DNA of 64,000 bases, taken from NCBI GenBank assembly GCA_016235665.1, contig JACRJI010000016.1, positions 124,001 through 188,000 of the forward strand, in the 5' to 3' direction. Positions within the stretch are counted from its first letter, which is position 1; the number at the start of each line of letters is the position of its first letter. The notes beneath the pieces are model-generated. The model was given only the letters and a program-made list of their open reading frames with translations. It searched no databases and had not been told where the DNA came from. The position numbers and the translations under genes are program-made. Shown here one piece after another: positions 4,788-14,150 of this stretch. This DNA is from a candidate division TA06 bacterium (GTDB taxonomy: Bacteria > Edwardsbacteria > AC1 > EtOH8).

Positions 4788-7298
4788 CTATCGGAGCAAA
4801 AGCATTTTTTTAGTGCCTTTGATCCCTGCGGCTTCCAGTTTGCAGACATAGACACCGTTGCTTGCCTGCAGGCCGTTGTCGTCCCGGCCGTTCCATTTGA
4901 CCGTATAGCTCCCAGCCTGCTGTTCACTATTGACCAATGTTTTCACCAGCTGGCCTGCTATGTTATAGATGTTCAGCTTGACCATCCCGTTCTTCGGCAG
5001 TTGGTAACTGATATTCGTCTGCTGGCTGAATGGGTTGGGCGAGTTCTGGAACAGTCTGAAGTCAGATATCCTTTCTCTGTTATCCGGCTTGCCAACCACC
5101 CCCAGCGGCACCTCCCCGAACTCTGCCATCACCTTCTGGGCCGCCAGTTTGACCTGTTCCCGGTCCATGAAGTACAGCGGGAACCCAAAGAACACCGTCT
5201 TCCCCGAGTCCCGCACCGCACAGGCTTTGCCTTCAAACGTACTGCCATTGTTCTTCATGTCCATCACATAGATGGTATCTGCCCCGGCCAGCGGGGTCAG
5301 GGCCTCGATGCTCCGGAACGTCTTGCCCCAGATGGTGGAGGGGTATTTTAAGGTATCCACAGCTATATCCGGATATCCCTTTAGGCCTATGGCAGTTTTG
5401 AAGGAGTCCACCGTGCTCGATAGTTCGGCATGGGATATCTTAAAATTATCATAAAGTATGTTTCCAAAGATAAAATCATCCGGGTATGAGGCGCTGCCCA
5501 TCACATCCCCGGTTGGTTTCCACCCGGCCAGCCACAGCTTGCCGCCATTGTCAAGGTAGCTCTTCATATCATTCACCGCCCCGGAGGCCAGTAATGTAAC
5601 GTAATCATCAGAGAACCAGGCCACCGTGGAATACGGTCCTAAGTCAGCCAGGATAGGCTTTTGCAGCGATGTCCCGTACTCGTAGGGTTCGTACTTGTAA
5701 CCGTTAAGGATATAGTTGTAGAAGCTGTCCTGCTGGGCATCCCGGGGAAAGCTCCCAGTGGTCCAATTATTGGTCTCGTCCATCAAAAGAACCCCCTGGT
5801 CCAGGGTGATCGGCCGGGCGTAGGCCGAGTCGGTAAATGGGCTATAGTTGCCATCGGAGTCGAAGGCACGGACCTTGTAATAGTATTTATTGGCACCGGG
5901 CAATGGTCTGATCACCAACTGCGTATCTGTCACTACAGTTAAACTGTCAAAAGAACCATCATCAATTTTACAGTATGCCTCATACCCGGCTATGTCAAGC
6001 TCCTGGTTTTTCTTCCAAAACAGGGAAATGCCCGAATCCACCGGGACAGCCGTCATGCTTGATGGGATCAAAGGCATTGATCTCGGGATCCCGGTTGTTT
6101 CCGATATCACTGGGCTTTCCCGGCCAGAGTCATCAATAGCAATGACACCCACATAATACAAACTATCTTCCTTTAATCCGGAAATGATATACTCTGTCAA
6201 CCCAGTAGTGGCTGAATCGGTATACACCCCAGAACTGCGGCCCCAATAGATATTATAGGCCACTATATTGCCTGCGATATCTGGTTCCCAATTAATTAAA
6301 AGCTCCGTACCGCTACCGGCATCTTTTACTGCCGGTTTGGTAGCTCTGGGATAATTTGATACGGTAGCCATCAGCCCCAATCCGCTCCTGATGATGTTAG
6401 CCATGGCTGGATAGTTGATGTAAATAGTGCTGTCGTGCCACGAGTGAATGAACGTATAATCAATAAAGTATTCCTGACTGTGTGTGGTATGGTACCCCAG
6501 GTCATGAAATGAAATAAAGTCGCTTGACATATCATCCCCTATTGCAGCCCGGATTGCGTTGGCTCCATCGTTACCGTACTTTTCCGCAGATAAGGCAAGT
6601 AATACGGTGAATGCCTCCGAACCCGATTGGGGCACTATGTGATAAAGAGTATCACATAAACGGCTTCCAATGCAGTCATAATTGCTCATCAGGCCGATAT
6701 TCATGTTCTGCTCATATGCTTCTTCAGCATAATGTTTACTTCCCAATAATCCTGATTCCTCAGCATCGAAGGCAATGAATCTAACGGTGCAGTTCGGTCG
6801 GTTCCCAGGCAACGCCAGCAACCTGGCCATCTCCAGTACCGCCGTGGTACCAGAACCGTTGTCGTCCGCGCCAGGGCTATTGCAAGTATCTCCGTTCAGA
6901 TCAATAGTTCCACCTGTGTCATAATGACCGCCTGTGATATATACTATCGAAGTATCGAGTAAACCAGGGAGGGTAGCCACTATGTTGTAACCATTCCTTT
7001 TTGCTATGGGATGGTAAAATGAATCCAACCTGACGTCGCTGATGCCCATCATAGTAAATTGATCAACCAGCCACTGCACAGTGCTGTCATAATTTGATCT
7101 GAAAATGCTATGATTATAAAATGACTGCAGGCTTTCCATATAATATTTGAGAGATAAAGTATCAACCTGAGCTGTCATTGAGCCTATCACCGGATCGTAT
7201 TCCAGGTAGGGATTGGCTATTAAAGTATCTGCCTTTGTAATCGTTGGAATACCGACCAACAAAGACAATACTACTATGATATTTAATGCCGTTTTCAT
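4788..7298 (-). CDS. Secreted M28 zinc aminopeptidase with FN3 domains and sorting tail (paralogue 1)
   Basis: 836 residues with a signal peptide (1-23, ending in TKA). The M28 peptidase domain follows: GGHYDTGG (H125), SPGADDNGSGT (D145/D146), DAEESGLLGS (E180/E181), NYDCIG (D208) and a late histidine near 280, the usual co-catalytic two-zinc set. Two fibronectin III-like domains come next. Then comes a domain beginning 'LLMDETNNW' that looks Rossmann or GATase-like but which I cannot name. The tail starts FRLFQNSPNPF and ends KKMLLLR, an FlgD/Ig-like sorting domain. It probably removes N-terminal residues from peptides outside the cell. GAAAGGGGG precedes the ATG. It lies 31 bases downstream of paralogue 2 on the same strand, so the two are probably cotranscribed. 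Parts are almost identical to paralogues 2 and 3. Confidence 0.9.
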   Translation of the reverse strand: MKTALNIIVVLSLLVGIPTITKADTLIANPYLEYDPVIGSMTAQVDTLSLKYYMESLQSFYNHSIFRSNYDSTVQWLVDQFTMMGISDVRLDSFYHPIAKRNGYNIVATLPGLLDTSIVYITGGHYDTGGTIDLNGDTCNSPGADDNGSGTTAVLEMARLLALPGNRPNCTVRFIAFDAEESGLLGSKHYAEEAYEQNMNIGLMSNYDCIGSRLCDTLYHIVPQSGSEAFTVLLALSAEKYGNDGANAIRAAIGDDMSSDFISFHDLGYHTTHSQEYFIDYTFIHSWHDSTIYINYPAMANIIRSGLGLMATVSNYPRATKPAVKDAGSGTELLINWEPDIAGNIVAYNIYWGRSSGVYTDSATTGLTEYIISGLKEDSLYYVGVIAIDDSGRESPVISETTGIPRSMPLIPSSMTAVPVDSGISLFWKKNQELDIAGYEAYCKIDDGSFDSLTVVTDTQLVIRPLPGANKYYYKVRAFDSDGNYSPFTDSAYARPITLDQGVLLMDETNNWTTGSFPRDAQQDSFYNYILNGYKYEPYEYGTSLQKPILADLGPYSTVAWFSDDYVTLLASGAVNDMKSYLDNGGKLWLAGWKPTGDVMGSASYPDDFIFGNILYDNFKISHAELSSTVDSFKTAIGLKGYPDIAVDTLKYPSTIWGKTFRSIEALTPLAGADTIYVMDMKNNGSTFEGKACAVRDSGKTVFFGFPLYFMDREQVKLAAQKVMAEFGEVPLGVVGKPDNRERISDFRLFQNSPNPFSQQTNISYQLPKNGMVKLNIYNIAGQLVKTLVNSEQQAGSYTVKWNGRDDNGLQASNGVYVCKLEAAGIKGTKKMLLLR
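5032..5347 (-). repeat. Near-identical block shared with paralogue 2 (copy A)
   Basis: This 316-base stretch of M28 paralogue 1 aligns without gaps to 7574-7889 of paralogue 2 and differs by only scattered bases. Flanking sequence diverges much more, which suggests gene conversion or recent partial duplication. Confidence 0.85.
5554..5753 (-). repeat. 200-base block shared with paralogue 3 (copy A)
   Basis: Ungapped match to 11121-11320 with two mismatches in 200 bases by eye. The same stretch of paralogue 2 (around 8095-8294) is clearly more diverged. Confidence 0.88.
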
Positions 7299-7329
7299 AT
7301 GCCCCCTTTCATGATCTATTTTATAGTAT

Positions 7330-10224
7330 TTACTTCAGTACTATCATCTTCCGGCTTTGGGTCTTGCCATCTGTGCTTAAATGATATATGTAAACCCCGG
7401 CGCTGACCTGTCTATTCTTGCTGTCTAACCTGTTCCATTTGACCGTATAGCTCCCAGCCTGCTGTTCACCATTGACCAATGTCTTCACCAACTGGCCCGC
7501 GATGTTATAGATGTTCAGTTTGACCCGGCCCGTTTGGGGAAGCTGATAGCTTATTGCCGTCTGGTTCTTGAACGGGTTGGGCGAGTTCTGGAACAATCTG
7601 AAATCAGTTATCCTTTCTCTGTTATCCGGCTTGCCAACCACCCCCAGCGGCACCTCCCCGAACTCTGCCATCACCTTCTGGGCCGCCAGTTTTGCTTGCT
7701 CCTTGTCCATGAAATACAGCGGGAAACCAAAGAACACCGTCTTGCCCGAGTCCCGCACCGCACAGGCTTTGCCTTCAAACGTACTGCCATTGTTCTTCAT
7801 GTCCATCACGTAGATGGTATCTGCCCCGGTCAGCGGGGTCAGGGCCTCGATGCTCCGGAACGTCTTGCCCCAGATGGTGGAGGGATATTTCAAAGTATCA
7901 ACCATGATATCCGGATATCCTCGTAACCCCGCAGCCATCCTGAAAGAATCTGTCGTTCCGGATAATTCGGCCTGGGAGATTTTAAAATGATCATAGGCTA
8001 TGTCCCCCGCGGAATAATTTGCGGGATAGGTAGTAGTGTTATGGATATTGCTTGATGGTTTCCAACCGGCAAACCAAAGCTTACCGCCGGCAGCCAGGTA
8101 GGCCTTCATATCAGCCACTGCCCCCGGGGCCAGCAATCCGGCATAATCATCGGCAAACCAAACCACAGTTGAGTATGGTCCAAAGTCCCCCAGTATAGGC
8201 CTTTGAGAGGAAAGACCGTACTCGTAAGGTTCGTAATCATAGCCCGTCATTATGTAGTTGTATAAACTGTCCTGCTGGGCGTCTCTTGGAAAGCTTCCCG
8301 TCGTCCAGTTGTTGGTCTCGTCCACCATAATGATCCCCTGATCCAGGGTGATCGGACGGCAGTAGACCGAATCCGATAGCGGGCTTTTGTTGCCGTCTGA
8401 ATCTTTGGCCTGCACTTTGTAAAAGTACCGGCTGGCACCGGACAGCGGTTTGTCCAGTAAAAAAGTGTCGGTGGTGCTGGCCAGGCTTTCGAACAAAGAG
8501 CCGTCAACCCTGCGGTAGACATCATAACCCGCCAGATCCAGCTCCAGATTTTTGCTCCAATCCAGCGAAACACCAGAATCCACCGGGACGGGGGTCAGAC
8601 CAGATGGTGCTAAGGGAAAAGCTTTGGGTGTGCCTGATTTTTCAACTGCAGCGTAACTACATGTACCATCTGATGCCACAGCTCGCATTATAATATAATA
8701 GGTTGTATCCGAAATCAGCCCATTTATCGTATCTAATGAAGCATCCTTTCCGAGAATGTAGGAACTGTCTGAATAAATCCCGCTGGTCTTACCCCAATAA
8801 ACATAATAACCTTCAATGTCGCTTTCTTGACTTGGTTCCCAAATCAATTGCAAACTGCTTCCGTTGCCTATATCAGCGACGAATGGTTCGACAGGATTTG
8901 GGTACTGCGATATGATCGCCATTAAGGCCACAGCAGCCTTGGTGTTTTTTGTATAAATATCCGCAGATAAAGTTTTTAACGAATCGGTTAAGCGGTGAAT
9001 ATTAGGATTTAAAGCTGGTTCTTCAAAAGCCAGGGTTGGAAACCCTAATTCCGCAAAACTCCAATCATCACAACCGGTAAAACTTTCGCACAAATATTGG
9101 TAATCTGAAACATATGAAGGTATAACCTGCAAGGCCAGATCTCTTAACCATCCTTTTGGGGAAGATAATTTGCCATCTATGATTGTATCTGACTTAAAGC
9201 CTACCATATCCATATTAAACATATTTGCGACATTCATACACGCACTATCTGCATACGTTGCGTAGTGTTTACTCCCCAGAATGCCCTGTTCTTCGGCCGC
9301 CCAACCGCAAAACATAATGGTTTTCCTCAAATTTGTGCCGGATAAAACCCTTGATACTTCCATTGCCCCAGCCGTACCGGAGGCGTTATCATCCGCACCG
9401 GGTGAAGTTACCTGAGATATTAATTCATCATATTCACTATATGAATCGTAATGCCCAGAAATGATGCTGATGCTGTTTGGATCCATTAACCCTATCTTTG
9501 AGGCGATGACATTTCTTGTATAACCGCTATCAATAAAATATGACGTATCTATGTAATGATGCCATATTTCTAAATAAAAACTGTCATACTCGGCCACGTA
9601 CCCCCAACCAGTCAGTTTGTCAACCAGCCATTGCGAAGCGGCAGTTGAACTGTCAGTCAAGGAGAACCTGGTCCTAAAATCCTGAAGTCTTTGGATGTAT
9701 GAGGTTATTGAATCTGCATTTACCTGGTCCACTAAGCTCTGGATGAAAGGGTCATAGGGTACGCTCTTTAACGTGACATACTTGGTAGTAACACTCTTCC
9801 AGAACCGGTCTCCCAATGGCTTGATATTCATCGGCCGGGTGATATGCTTATATTCAAGATCTAAATCATGGCCTTTGGATAGCGGCTTTATTATTGCCGC
9901 TTGGCCGTTCTGCCAGATTGGTTTTTCTTTTGGCCCCTGAGCTTTTTCGTTCTTCGATATTACCATGCACTTTGATGTTTCCGGCTGCCTGTCAATTATC
10001 TCTATAAGATAACCTTTTTGTTTTAATGATCCAACCTGGCTTTCCTCTATTTCCGTTATGGCCGTATTGCCTATAAGCTCATAGGTCGGTATTTTTAGCT
10101 GATGCCAGGCTTTCTTGCTCTCAATGGTCGGCAGTTCCACCGAGATCAACACAGTAGAACAAAGTGCCTCGGTAGCCAAAAGTAATAGCGCCAATAATGT
10201 TGCCAAAACGTACGGCCTTTTCAT
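7330..10224 (-). CDS. Secreted M28 zinc aminopeptidase with FN3 domains and sorting tail (paralogue 2)
   Basis: 964 residues with a signal peptide (1-22). A 130-residue N-terminal region unlike paralogue 1 resembles a propeptide. The M28 core carries SGHYDSYS (H258), SPGADDNASGT (D278/D279), AAEEQGILGS (E311/E312) and NMDMVGF, followed by two FN3-like domains, the 'MVDETNNW' domain and a sorting tail from FRLFQNSPNPF to KMIVLK. AGAAAGG sits seven bases before the ATG, and a good promoter lies 42 bases upstream. It is separated from paralogue 3 by a terminator and heads its own two-gene operon with paralogue 1. An extracellular exopeptidase role is inferred from the family; peptide preference is unknown. 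Confidence 0.9.
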   Translation of the reverse strand: MKRPYVLATLLALLLLATEALCSTVLISVELPTIESKKAWHQLKIPTYELIGNTAITEIEESQVGSLKQKGYLIEIIDRQPETSKCMVISKNEKAQGPKEKPIWQNGQAAIIKPLSKGHDLDLEYKHITRPMNIKPLGDRFWKSVTTKYVTLKSVPYDPFIQSLVDQVNADSITSYIQRLQDFRTRFSLTDSSTAASQWLVDKLTGWGYVAEYDSFYLEIWHHYIDTSYFIDSGYTRNVIASKIGLMDPNSISIISGHYDSYSEYDELISQVTSPGADDNASGTAGAMEVSRVLSGTNLRKTIMFCGWAAEEQGILGSKHYATYADSACMNVANMFNMDMVGFKSDTIIDGKLSSPKGWLRDLALQVIPSYVSDYQYLCESFTGCDDWSFAELGFPTLAFEEPALNPNIHRLTDSLKTLSADIYTKNTKAAVALMAIISQYPNPVEPFVADIGNGSSLQLIWEPSQESDIEGYYVYWGKTSGIYSDSSYILGKDASLDTINGLISDTTYYIIMRAVASDGTCSYAAVEKSGTPKAFPLAPSGLTPVPVDSGVSLDWSKNLELDLAGYDVYRRVDGSLFESLASTTDTFLLDKPLSGASRYFYKVQAKDSDGNKSPLSDSVYCRPITLDQGIIMVDETNNWTTGSFPRDAQQDSLYNYIMTGYDYEPYEYGLSSQRPILGDFGPYSTVVWFADDYAGLLAPGAVADMKAYLAAGGKLWFAGWKPSSNIHNTTTYPANYSAGDIAYDHFKISQAELSGTTDSFRMAAGLRGYPDIMVDTLKYPSTIWGKTFRSIEALTPLTGADTIYVMDMKNNGSTFEGKACAVRDSGKTVFFGFPLYFMDKEQAKLAAQKVMAEFGEVPLGVVGKPDNRERITDFRLFQNSPNPFKNQTAISYQLPQTGRVKLNIYNIAGQLVKTLVNGEQQAGSYTVKWNRLDSKNRQVSAGVYIYHLSTDGKTQSRKMIVLK
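7574..7889 (-). repeat. Near-identical block shared with paralogue 1 (copy B)
   Basis: Partner of 5032-5347 at a constant offset of 2542 bases with no gaps. Confidence 0.85.
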
Positions 10225-10265
10225 GGTTATACCTTTCTGTTGTTGGAATATTATCTATTATTTTA

Positions 10266-10295
10266 ACTATACTCCCCGGATATACTCTTTGTCAA
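10266..10295 (-). promoter_or_regulatory. Sigma70-type promoter for the M28 paralogue 2-1 operon
   Basis: On the minus strand TTGACA (10295-10290), an 18-base spacer and TATAGT (10271-10266). The -10 box ends 42 bases before the ATG. It sits just downstream of the terminator of paralogue 3, as expected for a new transcription unit. Confidence 0.7.
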
Positions 10296-10303
10296 CAATA
10301 ATT

Positions 10304-10340
10304 TAAATAAAAAGAGGCCGCCTTTGCCAGGCGGCCTCTT
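10304..10340 (-). terminator. Intrinsic terminator after M28 paralogue 3
   Basis: An 11-bp stem (10340-10330 with 10322-10312 on the minus strand) around a seven-base loop, followed on the minus strand by TTTATTT. It lies 14 bases after the stop of the gene at 10355. Confidence 0.88.
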
Positions 10341-10354
10341 AACATGGTTTCTGT

Positions 10355-13228
10355 TTACTTTAAAACTATCATCTTCCGGCTTTGGGTCTTGCCATCTGTA
10401 CTTAAATGATATATGTACACTCCAGCGCTGACCTGTCTATTCTTGCTATCTAACCTGTCCCATTTCACCGCATAGCTCCCAGCCGCCTGCTCCCCGCTTA
10501 CCAATGTCTTTACCAGCTGGCCCGCTATGTTATAGATGTTCAGTTTTACCATTCCGCTCTTCGGCAGTTGGTAACTAATGCTCGTCTGGTTCTTGAACGG
10601 GTTGGGCGAGTTCTGGAACAATCTGAAATCAGTTATCCGCTCCAAGTTCTCCGGCTTGCCCGCCACCCCCAGCGGCTCCTCCCCGAACTCAAGCATCACC
10701 TGCTGGGCCGCTGCTTTTACCTGTTCCCGGTCCATGAAGTACAGCGGGAACCCGAAGAACACCGTCTTGCCCGAGTCCCGCACCGCGCAGGCCCGGCCCT
10801 CGAACGGACTGGAGTCGTTCTTCAGATCCACCGTATAGATTGTATCTCCAGCCCCGGCCGGGGTCAAAGCCTCGACATACCTTAAGACCCTGCCCCAGAT
10901 GGTCAGGGGATACTTCAGGGTATCGATGGCAATGTCCGGATACCCCCTCGATCCCCTGGCGACTATAAAAGAATCGGTTGCAGCCGAAAGCTCGGCATTG
11001 GCCAGTCCGAAGTAATCATACAATATACTTCCGGGAACGAAGGTGAACGGATAGGTGGTGCTGTTTTGAACGTCGCTGCAGGGCTTCCACCCGGCCAGCC
11101 AGAGTTTACCGCCAGCATCCAGGTAGCTCTTCATATCATTCACCGCCCCGGAGGCCAGTAATGTAACGTAATCATCAGAGAACCAGGCCACCGTGGAATA
11201 CGGTCCTAAGTCAGCCAGGATAGGCTTTTGCAGCGATATCCCGTACTCGTAGGGTTCGTACTTGTAACCATTAAGGATATAGTTGTAGAAGCTGTCCTGC
11301 TGGGCATCCCGGGGAAAGCTTCCGCTTATCCAATTATTGGTCTCGTCCACCAGCAGGATCCCCTGGTCCCTGGTGATGGGACGGCTGTAGACCGAGTCTG
11401 ACAAGAGGCTTGTATTGCCTCCGGCATCCTGGGCCTGGATCTTGTAATAATACCGGCTGGCTCCGGAAAGCGGCTTTTCCAGGAGAAAGGTGTCCGCCGT
11501 GTGGGTCAGGCTGTCAAATGTGCCGTTGTCTATCCTGCGGTATACGTTGTAACCCTCCATATCCAGCTCCAGGTTACTTTTCCAGTTCAGCCTGATACCG
11601 GAGTCCACCGGAACTGCCGCCAGCCCACTAGGAGCCAGGGGCAATGACTTGGGAGTGCCGGTGATCTCGCTTATCAAGGGGCTCTCCCGGTTTTCATCAT
11701 CCATCGCTATGACCCCGATATAATACAGGCTGTCGGAGTTCAAGCCGCCGATGGTGTCTGAGGTGCCGGCAACCGGCATTGAATCAATATAACTGCCCGA
11801 GGCTTTCCCCCAATAGAGCTTATAACCGGTCACATTGCTGGCCTGGTTTGGCTGCCAATTGACATATAGCTGGGTTCCGTTCCCAACATCCTTAACTGCC
11901 AATCCCCTGACCTTCTGGGGATAATTGGCCAGGGTCCCAAGCAGGCCCATCCCAGCCCTGATAATGCTGGTGCAATACCTCATATTCATGTATGTGGTAC
12001 TATCTGAAATAAGATGCCAATTGGGGCTAAAAAGATATTCTTCACTGTATGCCACGGGATACCCCCTGGCGAAAAAAGACCAACTATCGCTGCCGCTGGA
12101 ATTGTCATTCACGTAAAACGGGACCAGGTTAGTGTCTGCGGTCCGTCCGTACCACTGGGCGCACTGGCCGGATAACCCGGCATAGATTTCGGAACCATCG
12201 TAAGAATAGCAATTGAAAAGGCTTTGGTTGCCCAGGTTCCCTATCATGTCAAAATTAAGCATGGTCGCAATGTTCATGCCCTGGGACAGGGCCTGCTCTG
12301 CAAAATATTCGCAACCATAAAGGCCCCATTCCTCGCCGTCGAATGCCACGAATTTGATTGTGGTTGCCGGAGGATTGGCAGCCAGCACCTCGGCGGCCTC
12401 CATGGCTGCGGTGGTGCCCGACGCATTGTCATCTGCGCCCGGAGCCCAGGGATTGTATGGCCAGACCGAAGAGTCATAATGCCCGCCGATGACATAGACC
12501 GTGCTAGTATCTTTGGTGCCCGGAATGGTGGCCACCACGTTTTTCATCCAGATCACTGAGTCCATATCGGCATTCAAACCGGCATCGGTGAAGGAATCGA
12601 TTTTGACATCGGCGATGCCCATTCCAAGGAATTTTGTCTGGATCCATTTGGCCACGGAATCATGGTTGGAAGCCATGATCGACCTGGTGTTGAAGGCCTG
12701 AAAGGTATCGATAGTGGCCCGCACGTGGGCTGTGTCTATCAGACCTGCCAGGGCCGCCACCGCAGTATCCAGGGTCAGGCTGTTATTTCTGACCACAGCG
12801 GACGTAGGTATGATTATCGGTTGAACCCTGAAAGGCCGGACCACATAACTGCTCCCGCTTTTGATGCCGGCCGCGGTCAGGCTCCCGGTTTCCGCCAGCA
12901 GCATATCTTTTCCCGAATAAACCGCTTTGATGACCGGCGGTTGGTTGTTTCTTTTAAGATGCACCCAGCGCAGATCTTCCGAGAGACCCCGATAGGCCAG
13001 GGATGACCCCTGTACCTCTTGGTGTCCGGATCCGGACAATGGTAGGCCCATCAGGGCTTGTTGCCCGGAAATGTGGTACACCGGCCATTTTTGGGAACCG
13101 GCCAGCCGGTAAACATCGGTGCCCGGTATAAATTTCACAAGATAGAGTTCCACTGGAACTGCCAATACGGTCCCGGCTCCCATCGCCAGCAGGACCAAGG
13201 CGGAGATGAACAGATTTCTGATTCTCAT
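10355..13228 (-). CDS. Secreted M28 zinc aminopeptidase with FN3 domains and sorting tail (paralogue 3)
   Basis: 957 residues with a signal peptide (1-23) and a long N-terminal region (to about 150) distinct from both paralogues. M28 motifs are GGHYDSS (H250), APGADDNASGT (D266/D267), DGEEWGLYG (E299/E300), NFDMIGN and a late NWHLIS histidine. FN3-like domains, the 'LVDETNNW' domain and the sorting tail (FRLFQNSPNPF to KMIVLK) follow. The last 12 residues are identical to paralogue 2, while residues covering 11121-11320 match paralogue 1. AAGGAAAACC precedes the ATG. A TATAAT box lies at 13274-13279 on the minus strand, inside the 3' gap of htpX, but its -35 is poor. Its own terminator follows. 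Confidence 0.9.
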   Translation of the reverse strand: MRIRNLFISALVLLAMGAGTVLAVPVELYLVKFIPGTDVYRLAGSQKWPVYHISGQQALMGLPLSGSGHQEVQGSSLAYRGLSEDLRWVHLKRNNQPPVIKAVYSGKDMLLAETGSLTAAGIKSGSSYVVRPFRVQPIIIPTSAVVRNNSLTLDTAVAALAGLIDTAHVRATIDTFQAFNTRSIMASNHDSVAKWIQTKFLGMGIADVKIDSFTDAGLNADMDSVIWMKNVVATIPGTKDTSTVYVIGGHYDSSVWPYNPWAPGADDNASGTTAAMEAAEVLAANPPATTIKFVAFDGEEWGLYGCEYFAEQALSQGMNIATMLNFDMIGNLGNQSLFNCYSYDGSEIYAGLSGQCAQWYGRTADTNLVPFYVNDNSSGSDSWSFFARGYPVAYSEEYLFSPNWHLISDSTTYMNMRYCTSIIRAGMGLLGTLANYPQKVRGLAVKDVGNGTQLYVNWQPNQASNVTGYKLYWGKASGSYIDSMPVAGTSDTIGGLNSDSLYYIGVIAMDDENRESPLISEITGTPKSLPLAPSGLAAVPVDSGIRLNWKSNLELDMEGYNVYRRIDNGTFDSLTHTADTFLLEKPLSGASRYYYKIQAQDAGGNTSLLSDSVYSRPITRDQGILLVDETNNWISGSFPRDAQQDSFYNYILNGYKYEPYEYGISLQKPILADLGPYSTVAWFSDDYVTLLASGAVNDMKSYLDAGGKLWLAGWKPCSDVQNSTTYPFTFVPGSILYDYFGLANAELSAATDSFIVARGSRGYPDIAIDTLKYPLTIWGRVLRYVEALTPAGAGDTIYTVDLKNDSSPFEGRACAVRDSGKTVFFGFPLYFMDREQVKAAAQQVMLEFGEEPLGVAGKPENLERITDFRLFQNSPNPFKNQTSISYQLPKSGMVKLNIYNIAGQLVKTLVSGEQAAGSYAVKWDRLDSKNRQVSAGVYIYHLSTDGKTQSRKMIVLK
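11121..11320 (-). repeat. 200-base block shared with paralogue 1 (copy B)
   Basis: Partner of 5554-5753; the two mismatches are a G/A in the 'gatNtcc' stretch and a G/A in 'aaccNtta'. Confidence 0.88.
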
Positions 13229-13298: not shown

Positions 13299-14150
13299 CT
13301 ACCCCCTGCCCAAGGCCCTCAGTTTTGCCACCCTCTCCTCGATCGGAGGGTGGGTAGAGAACAGGCTCATCAGGCTTTTGCCCGAAAGCGGATTGACGAT
13401 AAACAGGTGGGATGAAACGGGATTGGCGTTCATCGGCGCGATCTGCACCCCGGCCTGCAGTTTTTCCAATGCGCTGGCCAGCCCCTGGGGGGAGCCTGCG
13501 ATCTGGGCACCCCCGGAGTCGGCCGAGTATTCCCGGGTGCGGGATATCCACATCTTGATCAGCAGCGCGGCTATGGGCGCCAGGATCATCATCAGGATCA
13601 TTCCCAGCCCCCCGCCGCCCCGGTCGCGGTCCCGGTCGCCGCCGTAGCCCCCGAACATGGCGGCGTAGCCCGCCATTCGGGCTATCATGGTGATGGCCCC
13701 GGCGATGGTGGCCACCACCGTGGCTATCAGGATATCCCGGTGCTGGACATGGGCCAGCTCATGGGCGATCACTCCTTCCAGCTCCTGGCGGTTCAAAAGC
13801 TGCATGATGCCCTGGGTCACCGCCACCGCCGCGTGCTGGGGATCGCGCCCGGTGGCAAAAGCGTTGGGCGAGGCCGAGGGAATGATGTAGACCTTGGGCA
13901 TGGGCAGGGAGGCCCGGGTGGCCAGGGTCCGCACCATGTTATACAGGTCAGGGGCCTCGGCTTCGGTCACCGGCTGGGCCTTGTAACTCATTAATGCGAT
14001 CTTGTCCGAGAACCAGTAGGCCACAAAGTTCAGGCCCCCGGCAAAAAGCAGGGCCATGATCGCGCCCTGTTGGCCGCCATAATATCCGCCCAGTAATACC
14101 AGCAGAACGGTTAGCCCTGACATCAGGATGATAGTTTTGAACATGTTCAT
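13299..14150 (-). CDS. htpX: HtpX-like membrane zinc metalloprotease (M48)
   Basis: 283 residues, the usual HtpX length. Two membrane segments lie at about 5-25 and 30-48, then the zinc motif HELAH at 130-134 (followed by VQHRD) and a hydrophobic pair around 142-195. The third ligand is expected in REYSAD near residue 204. In known bacteria HtpX degrades misfolded inner-membrane proteins with its active site facing the cytoplasm. It is the last gene of a five-gene run and starts 12 bases after the stop of the barrel-like protein, which suggests a role in envelope stress or processing with its neighbours. A glycine/arginine-rich loop (GGYGGDRDRDRGGGG) lies between membrane segments. Confidence 0.95.
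   Translation of the reverse strand: MNMFKTIILMSGLTVLLVLLGGYYGGQQGAIMALLFAGGLNFVAYWFSDKIALMSYKAQPVTEAEAPDLYNMVRTLATRASLPMPKVYIIPSASPNAFATGRDPQHAAVAVTQGIMQLLNRQELEGVIAHELAHVQHRDILIATVVATIAGAITMIARMAGYAAMFGGYGGDRDRDRGGGGLGMILMMILAPIAALLIKMWISRTREYSADSGGAQIAGSPQGLASALEKLQAGVQIAPMNANPVSSHLFIVNPLSGKSLMSLFSTHPPIEERVAKLRALGRG

Follow-up and report, generated by a model that had tools for sequence, protein, structure and literature searches.

Mosaic histories in an htpX-linked array of M28 peptidase genes from a candidate division TA06 (Edwardsbacteria) genome

Beside htpX in the genome of a candidate division TA06 bacterium (GTDB lineage Edwardsbacteria; contig JACRJI010000016.1, positions 124,001 to 188,000) lie three tandem genes for M28 peptidases, p1, p2 and p3, in which the pair that agrees best changes along the sequence. 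The locus raises the question of how a single gene comes to resemble one neighbour in one stretch and another neighbour in the next. The window is the whole stretch of 64,000 nucleotides analysed, of which the array spans 4788-13228. An earlier note, made from the letters alone, had proposed that blockwise gene conversion keeps the C-terminal modules alike while the peptidase parts diversify. Our analysis makes it very likely that four M28 paralogues (the three of the array and one elsewhere) swap pieces by homologous recombination, and that in related genomes the catalytic block has been swapped while the conserved flanks on either side stayed in place.

The three genes, all on the minus strand, as are the stretches within them described below, share a common layout: an M28 domain comes first, then fn3-like repeats, then a module of ~263 residues, and finally a FlgD_ig/Por_Secre_tail sorting domain of the type IX secretion system (T9SS). 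Gene p1 (4788..7298; 836 residues, M28 at residues 105-303) has a short N-terminus, without the prodomain of ~130 residues that is found in both p2 (7330..10224; 964 residues, M28 at 248-434) and p3 (10355..13228; 957 residues, signal/prodomain, M28 at 230-416). The fourth paralogue, p4, is unlinked, on a separate contig (L016:8166-11090, = C13:158165-161089), and its module is 81% identical to that of p1.

All three pairs of array genes are collinear across the C-terminal half (offsets 2542, 5567 and 3025), with a longest exact run in common of 117 bases. The p1-p3 block (5554..5753 in p1, 11121..11320 in p3) matches at 198 of 200 positions and the p1-p2 block (5032..5347 and 7574..7889) at 301 of 316, and the variable stretch separating them is only ~55% identical. 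The coordinates and counts reported in the earlier note were recovered, including the two mismatches between p1 and p3 and the 31 identical residues that end p2 and p3; the p1-p2 block has the place and size described there, although “nearly identical” is a little strong for 15 mismatches (95.3% identity). The N-termini and peptidase domains are, as the note had it, much more diverged. Identity across these regions of the three genes is ~25-60%, and silent sites in the catalytic domains have reached saturation among all four paralogues (silent divergence, pS, ~0.74). The peptidase domains of the paralogues are not homogenised.

For each informative site we recorded which two of three sequences agree, and assessed the clustering of these agreements by permutation, using silent sites only; such a two-against-one test is insensitive to constraint common to the paralogues. 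Agreement of p1 with p3 is clustered (24 of 25 silent sites, p=1e-4), with silent-site support over 5577-5799 of p1, and so is agreement of p2 with p4 (12 of 14 silent two-against-one sites, at 7498..7603 of p2; p=1e-4). Clustering is weaker for p1 and p2 (p=0.016), while p2 and p3 give p=0.05, or 0.009 against p4. A stretch of p3 (10639..10799) also matches p4, with p 0.0003-0.0016 on third positions and 0.05-0.18 on silent sites alone. Silent runs with zero mismatches are significant for p1-p3 only, and not for p1-p2 or p2-p3; this form of the test is too strict for the latter two pairs, for which segment scores were used in its place.

In a second test, with codons bootstrapped, we set the silent divergence between paralogues of this genome against their divergence from the sister-species copies. 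Over residues 641-705, p1 and p3 differ by 0.06 (interval 0.00-0.14), compared with 0.61 to the sister-species copies. The corresponding values are 0.21 and 0.57 for p1-p2 (residues 761-870), 0.16 and 0.52 for p3-p4, and 0.29 and 0.54 for the four-way comparison at residues 801-870. In the control regions (residues 716-760 and the catalytic domain), divergence within the genome equals that to the sister species. Silent divergence per block, a check that the earlier note had suggested, is thus not uniform, being low in the blocks and saturated in the catalytic domains, and the two tests together bear out gene conversion for the p1-p3 block and, with the weaker clustering given above, for the p1-p2 block. 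Multi-way conversion that includes the unlinked p4 is supported at residues 801-870, because the paralogues of this genome are closer there at silent sites to each other than to the copies of sister species. The p1-p3 event probably postdates the split from the sister species (genome G2), since the neighbouring HtpX-like gene, used as a clock, has a silent divergence of 0.25 from that of G2. A pair of tandem genes, a and b, in a further family genome (G7) has a saturated catalytic pS of 0.71 and a module pS of 0.35, and, judged by these values, is an independent instance of module exchange.

The third similarity, between the ends of p2 and p3, is of a different kind. The last 31 residues of p2 (7330..7425) equal those of p3, and the two genes have 4, 7 and 11 mismatches over their final 60, 90 and 120 bases. 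This identity is real, but conversion is unsupported: the tail fails the sister-species test (0.38 within the genome vs 0.47, with an interval that spans zero). Much the same tail occurs in the G2 counterpart of p3 (G2_p3) and in genes of G5, G7, G8 and G9; the odd tail is that of p1, which resembles the gene G1_a. We read the p2-p3 tail as retained, because genes of sister species carry it as well and its silent sites are not clearly less diverged than those compared between species. Conversion among all ~69 sorting tails of the genome was also considered and rejected, as the DNA similarity of the end of p3 reaches four paralogues only.

What separates the catalytic domains becomes visible when the htpX-linked locus is compared among genomes of the Edwardsbacteria family, where readable, with one genome per species (G0 is the genome of the window, G2 is of the same genus, and G9 of another genus). 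The locus holds one to three such peptidase genes per genome. The HtpX-like M48 peptidase gene (13299..14150, minus strand), so named from its own sequence, serves as syntenic anchor and species-tree control; its product is 98% identical between G0 and G2, 93% between G0 and G1, 86-92% among G7, G8 and G9, 70-77% between groups, and 71% between G0 and G9. The prodomain of p3 follows this order, with 79% identity to G2_p3 and 62% to G9_a. Its catalytic domain, in contrast, is 86% identical to that of G9_a and only 58-61% identical to those of G2_p3 and G1_a, and for the block with this history unlike its flanks (11909..12841; 85-86% to G9_a, 58% to G2_p3), identity shifts at about residues 145-150 and 421-450 of p3, not far from where the domains meet. 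The catalytic domains of G2_p3 and G1_a are in turn 83-87% identical to those of G5_a and G7_a. Similarly, G8_a goes with G5/G7 in its prodomain and module (pS 0.25 and 0.33 to G7_a) but has a catalytic domain with pS 0.67 to G7_a, which lies nearer to G3/G6 in the tree, with weak support.

Trees of the prodomain, catalytic domain and C-terminal module conflict, and their main groupings are well supported. In the catalytic tree, the approximately unbiased (AU) test rejects the grouping of G0_p3 with G2_p3 (indicative p 1.7e-79) and that of G8_a with G5_a/G7_a (indicative p 8e-5). One history for the whole gene is rejected by the tree tests, and the catalytic-domain tree conflicts with both flanks and species, as in the allelic exchange of gingipains. 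The picture of C-terminal modules kept alike while peptidase parts diversify covers only part of the pattern: in relatives, the peptidase domain itself has been exchanged as a block. The mosaic described in the earlier note is real, and conversion, the process it named, accounts for two of the three blocks; the note missed the exchange of catalytic domains. The locus is better described as recombining by modules along the entire gene, catalytic domain included.

Three other genes of this kind deserve mention. G1_a (L046:4055-6655), at the same locus, is a single gene with a p3-like prodomain and a p1-like tail; it looks as if two genes had been fused by unequal crossing-over, or else joined in assembly. 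G8_b (L052:3771-6659), of the p2 type, has a frameshift in the prodomain and lacks the last ~40 residues, and is a probable pseudogene. The p2-like G2_c (L048:5537-8098) is otherwise intact, with an in-frame TAA in its N-terminal part, which makes it a pseudogene or the result of a sequencing error.

Could parts of the module stay alike through strong purifying selection or codon constraint, with no conversion at all? Conservation falls on the same stretches of the module in all pairs and in other genomes, and residues 801-870 are lower in silent divergence in most comparisons; yet p1-p3 silent divergence is ten times below the between-species value in the same codons, and the agreeing pair switches along the gene, which shared constraint cannot bring about. 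As a general account constraint is quite improbable, being contradicted for p1-p3 and p1-p2, and for the p2-p3 tail it is still the preferable reading. That the blocks derive from collapsed or cross-polished repeats is very improbable, even though these genomes look like metagenome assemblies and G2 contigs end inside these genes. Collapse is unlikely because the longest exact run is that of 117 bases and a two-copy direct repeat should give a single path through the assembly graph; moreover, fixed differences remain in the blocks, the tracts that p4 shares with p2 and with p3 reach across to another contig, and the same pattern is found independently in G7. A dedicated variation system (a recombinase, shufflon or diversity-generating retroelement) would fit loosely with variable parts between constant flanks, but the flanking inverted repeats are short and imperfect only, and the tracts vary in length and place. 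No recombinase or reverse transcriptase was recognised by eye among the listed open reading frames around the array, a survey that included neither a family search of the whole window nor a search for trans-acting elements elsewhere, and we regard such a system as extremely improbable.

Hidden paralogy bears on the catalytic domains, and supposes that several p3-like genes, their catalytic domains of type I or type II, stood in an ancestral array and were then lost differentially, with little horizontal exchange. The copies are in tandem, copy number changes commonly at this locus (one to three genes), and type I is common to two genera, as is type II. Both types were found together in none of the family genomes searched, and for this reason the comparison favours allelic exchange over simple loss. 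In addition, prodomain and catalytic trees conflict inside single genes, so that intragenic recombination would still be needed. We consider hidden paralogy possible, though rather unlikely. Several points also weigh against recombination among paralogues and relatives as we describe it. The p1-p2 silent-site support is weak by itself (p 0.016, rising to 0.11 when p4 is the third sequence), many of the distances are close to saturation, and retention explains the p2-p3 tail equally well. The clades put to the AU test were named after the trees had been seen, which leaves its p-values indicative. Several of these apparent metagenome assemblies have contigs that end inside these genes, and a hybrid like G1_a could therefore have arisen in assembly. 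Finally, export, activity and change of substrate are predictions from sequence.

Short tracts of the C-terminal module have thus passed from gene to gene (p1 with p3, p1 with p2, and all four with one another), which leaves them closer to each other than to the copies of sister species; the agent is presumably RecA-type gene conversion inside the genome. Alleles may also have been taken up from other Edwardsbacteria, with the conserved flanks supplying the homology for exchange; a ComEC-like gene, present in this genome and in most control genomes as well, is compatible with DNA uptake. A fixed prodomain and tail would leave folding and T9SS export intact, while a new catalytic domain might alter the substrate range. 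More tentatively, and with some doubt, the htpX-linked locus could be a standing exchange site in Edwardsbacteria, in which a fixed frame (signal, prodomain and export tail) receives diverged catalytic domains recombined from a cross-genus pool; selection, either balancing or diversifying, would keep them diverse, and the array of paralogues would be a local donor.

The proteins are predicted to be secreted M28 enzymes of the zinc aminopeptidase type. Matches to PF04389 score 110-124 bits (gathering score 21.3), and the motifs GHYD, PGADDN, EE, NxD and H are kept in p1-p3 and near-invariant in an alignment of 16 sequences; from the 1AMP family, we take these to hold the five metal ligands H, D, E, D and H. 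The sorting tail exceeds the TIGR04183 cut-off in all four paralogues (34-43 bits vs 23), and the PF18962 sorting domain scores 30-33 bits (vs 27). Together with a strong PorU (584 bits vs 420), PorV-like proteins above the cut-off and the ~69 sorting-domain places of the genome, of which only the four paralogues have similar tail DNA, this suggests a T9SS-like export route; the SprA_N match is weak and partial (34.6 bits).

The 263-residue module has no Pfam name. Its model (pLDDT, the predicted local distance difference, 73) matches class I glutamine amidotransferase/ThuA-like structures in Foldseek (4e5v and 1t0b; E 1e-5 to 1e-3) with TM-scores, by query, of only 0.35-0.47, so that this fold is assigned tentatively, and the module is probably not a catalytic amidotransferase. 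A scan of the genome contigs with a single protein found no relative, and an alignment search found 68 loci in many phyla. The module seems to be an accessory that secreted peptidases carry more generally, because M1 aminopeptidases in Cloacimonadota and a Caldithrix also have relatives of it (L077, L089 and L095). A phage origin was considered, and gave no match. In Zixibacteria (L085 and L087), relatives of the module have other C-termini, and the M28 protein of L085 ends in a dockerin domain in place of the T9SS tail.

Among characterised enzymes, p3 resembles the Vibrio/Aeromonas-type leucyl aminopeptidase (1AMP/1RTQ; E about 1e-18 to 3b3t/1amp), with the motifs kept, and the Legionella LapA model is matched at E 1e-13 to 2e-20, far under its equivalog cut-off; unlike either, p1-p3 add fn3, the 263-residue module and a sorting tail. 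The mechanism would be ordinary homologous recombination, with a close published precedent in Porphyromonas gingivalis, where gingipains Kgp/RgpA and PrtT undergo domain rearrangement and allelic exchange (PMC5266723). Gingipain catalytic variants are distinct and do not track strain phylogeny, with gene conversion or allelic exchange proposed, and differ by 21 changes in 150 residues within one species (PMC5266723). Swapping of the catalytic domain independently of phylogeny is common to both cases. The present enzymes are M28, whereas gingipains are C25 and streptopain C10, the adhesin modules there are unrelated, and here whole catalytic domains differ by ~40% across genera, in the phylum Edwardsbacteria. 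In adenylation domains of nonribosomal peptide synthetases, the specificity-determining part is likewise exchanged by intragenomic recombination while the flanks stay; those are cytosolic biosynthetic enzymes, and the case is backed by biochemistry and engineering (PMC9205934). In the literature on domain-level concerted evolution of bacterial proteases, only the gingipain paper (PMC5266723) was close. What a human pathogen shows for its T9SS-exported peptidases, recombination by modules, would thus extend beyond Bacteroidota to uncultured bacteria, suggesting that it is tied to the architecture of these proteins and not to host immune pressure alone. Trees built from entire genes of such peptidases are misleading, since several histories are combined in one gene.

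Within the array, a terminator-like hairpin 3′ of p3 (10312..10340) is followed by a promoter-like site (10295-10266), both minus-strand consensus matches only, which suggests two separate transcription units, p3 and p2-p1. Directly upstream of p4 lie three more sorting-tail genes (L016:228-8109). Elsewhere, an open reading frame at L060:3278-5047 fuses a SecA DEAD segment to a module-plus-tail end, and is probably an accident of frame or assembly.
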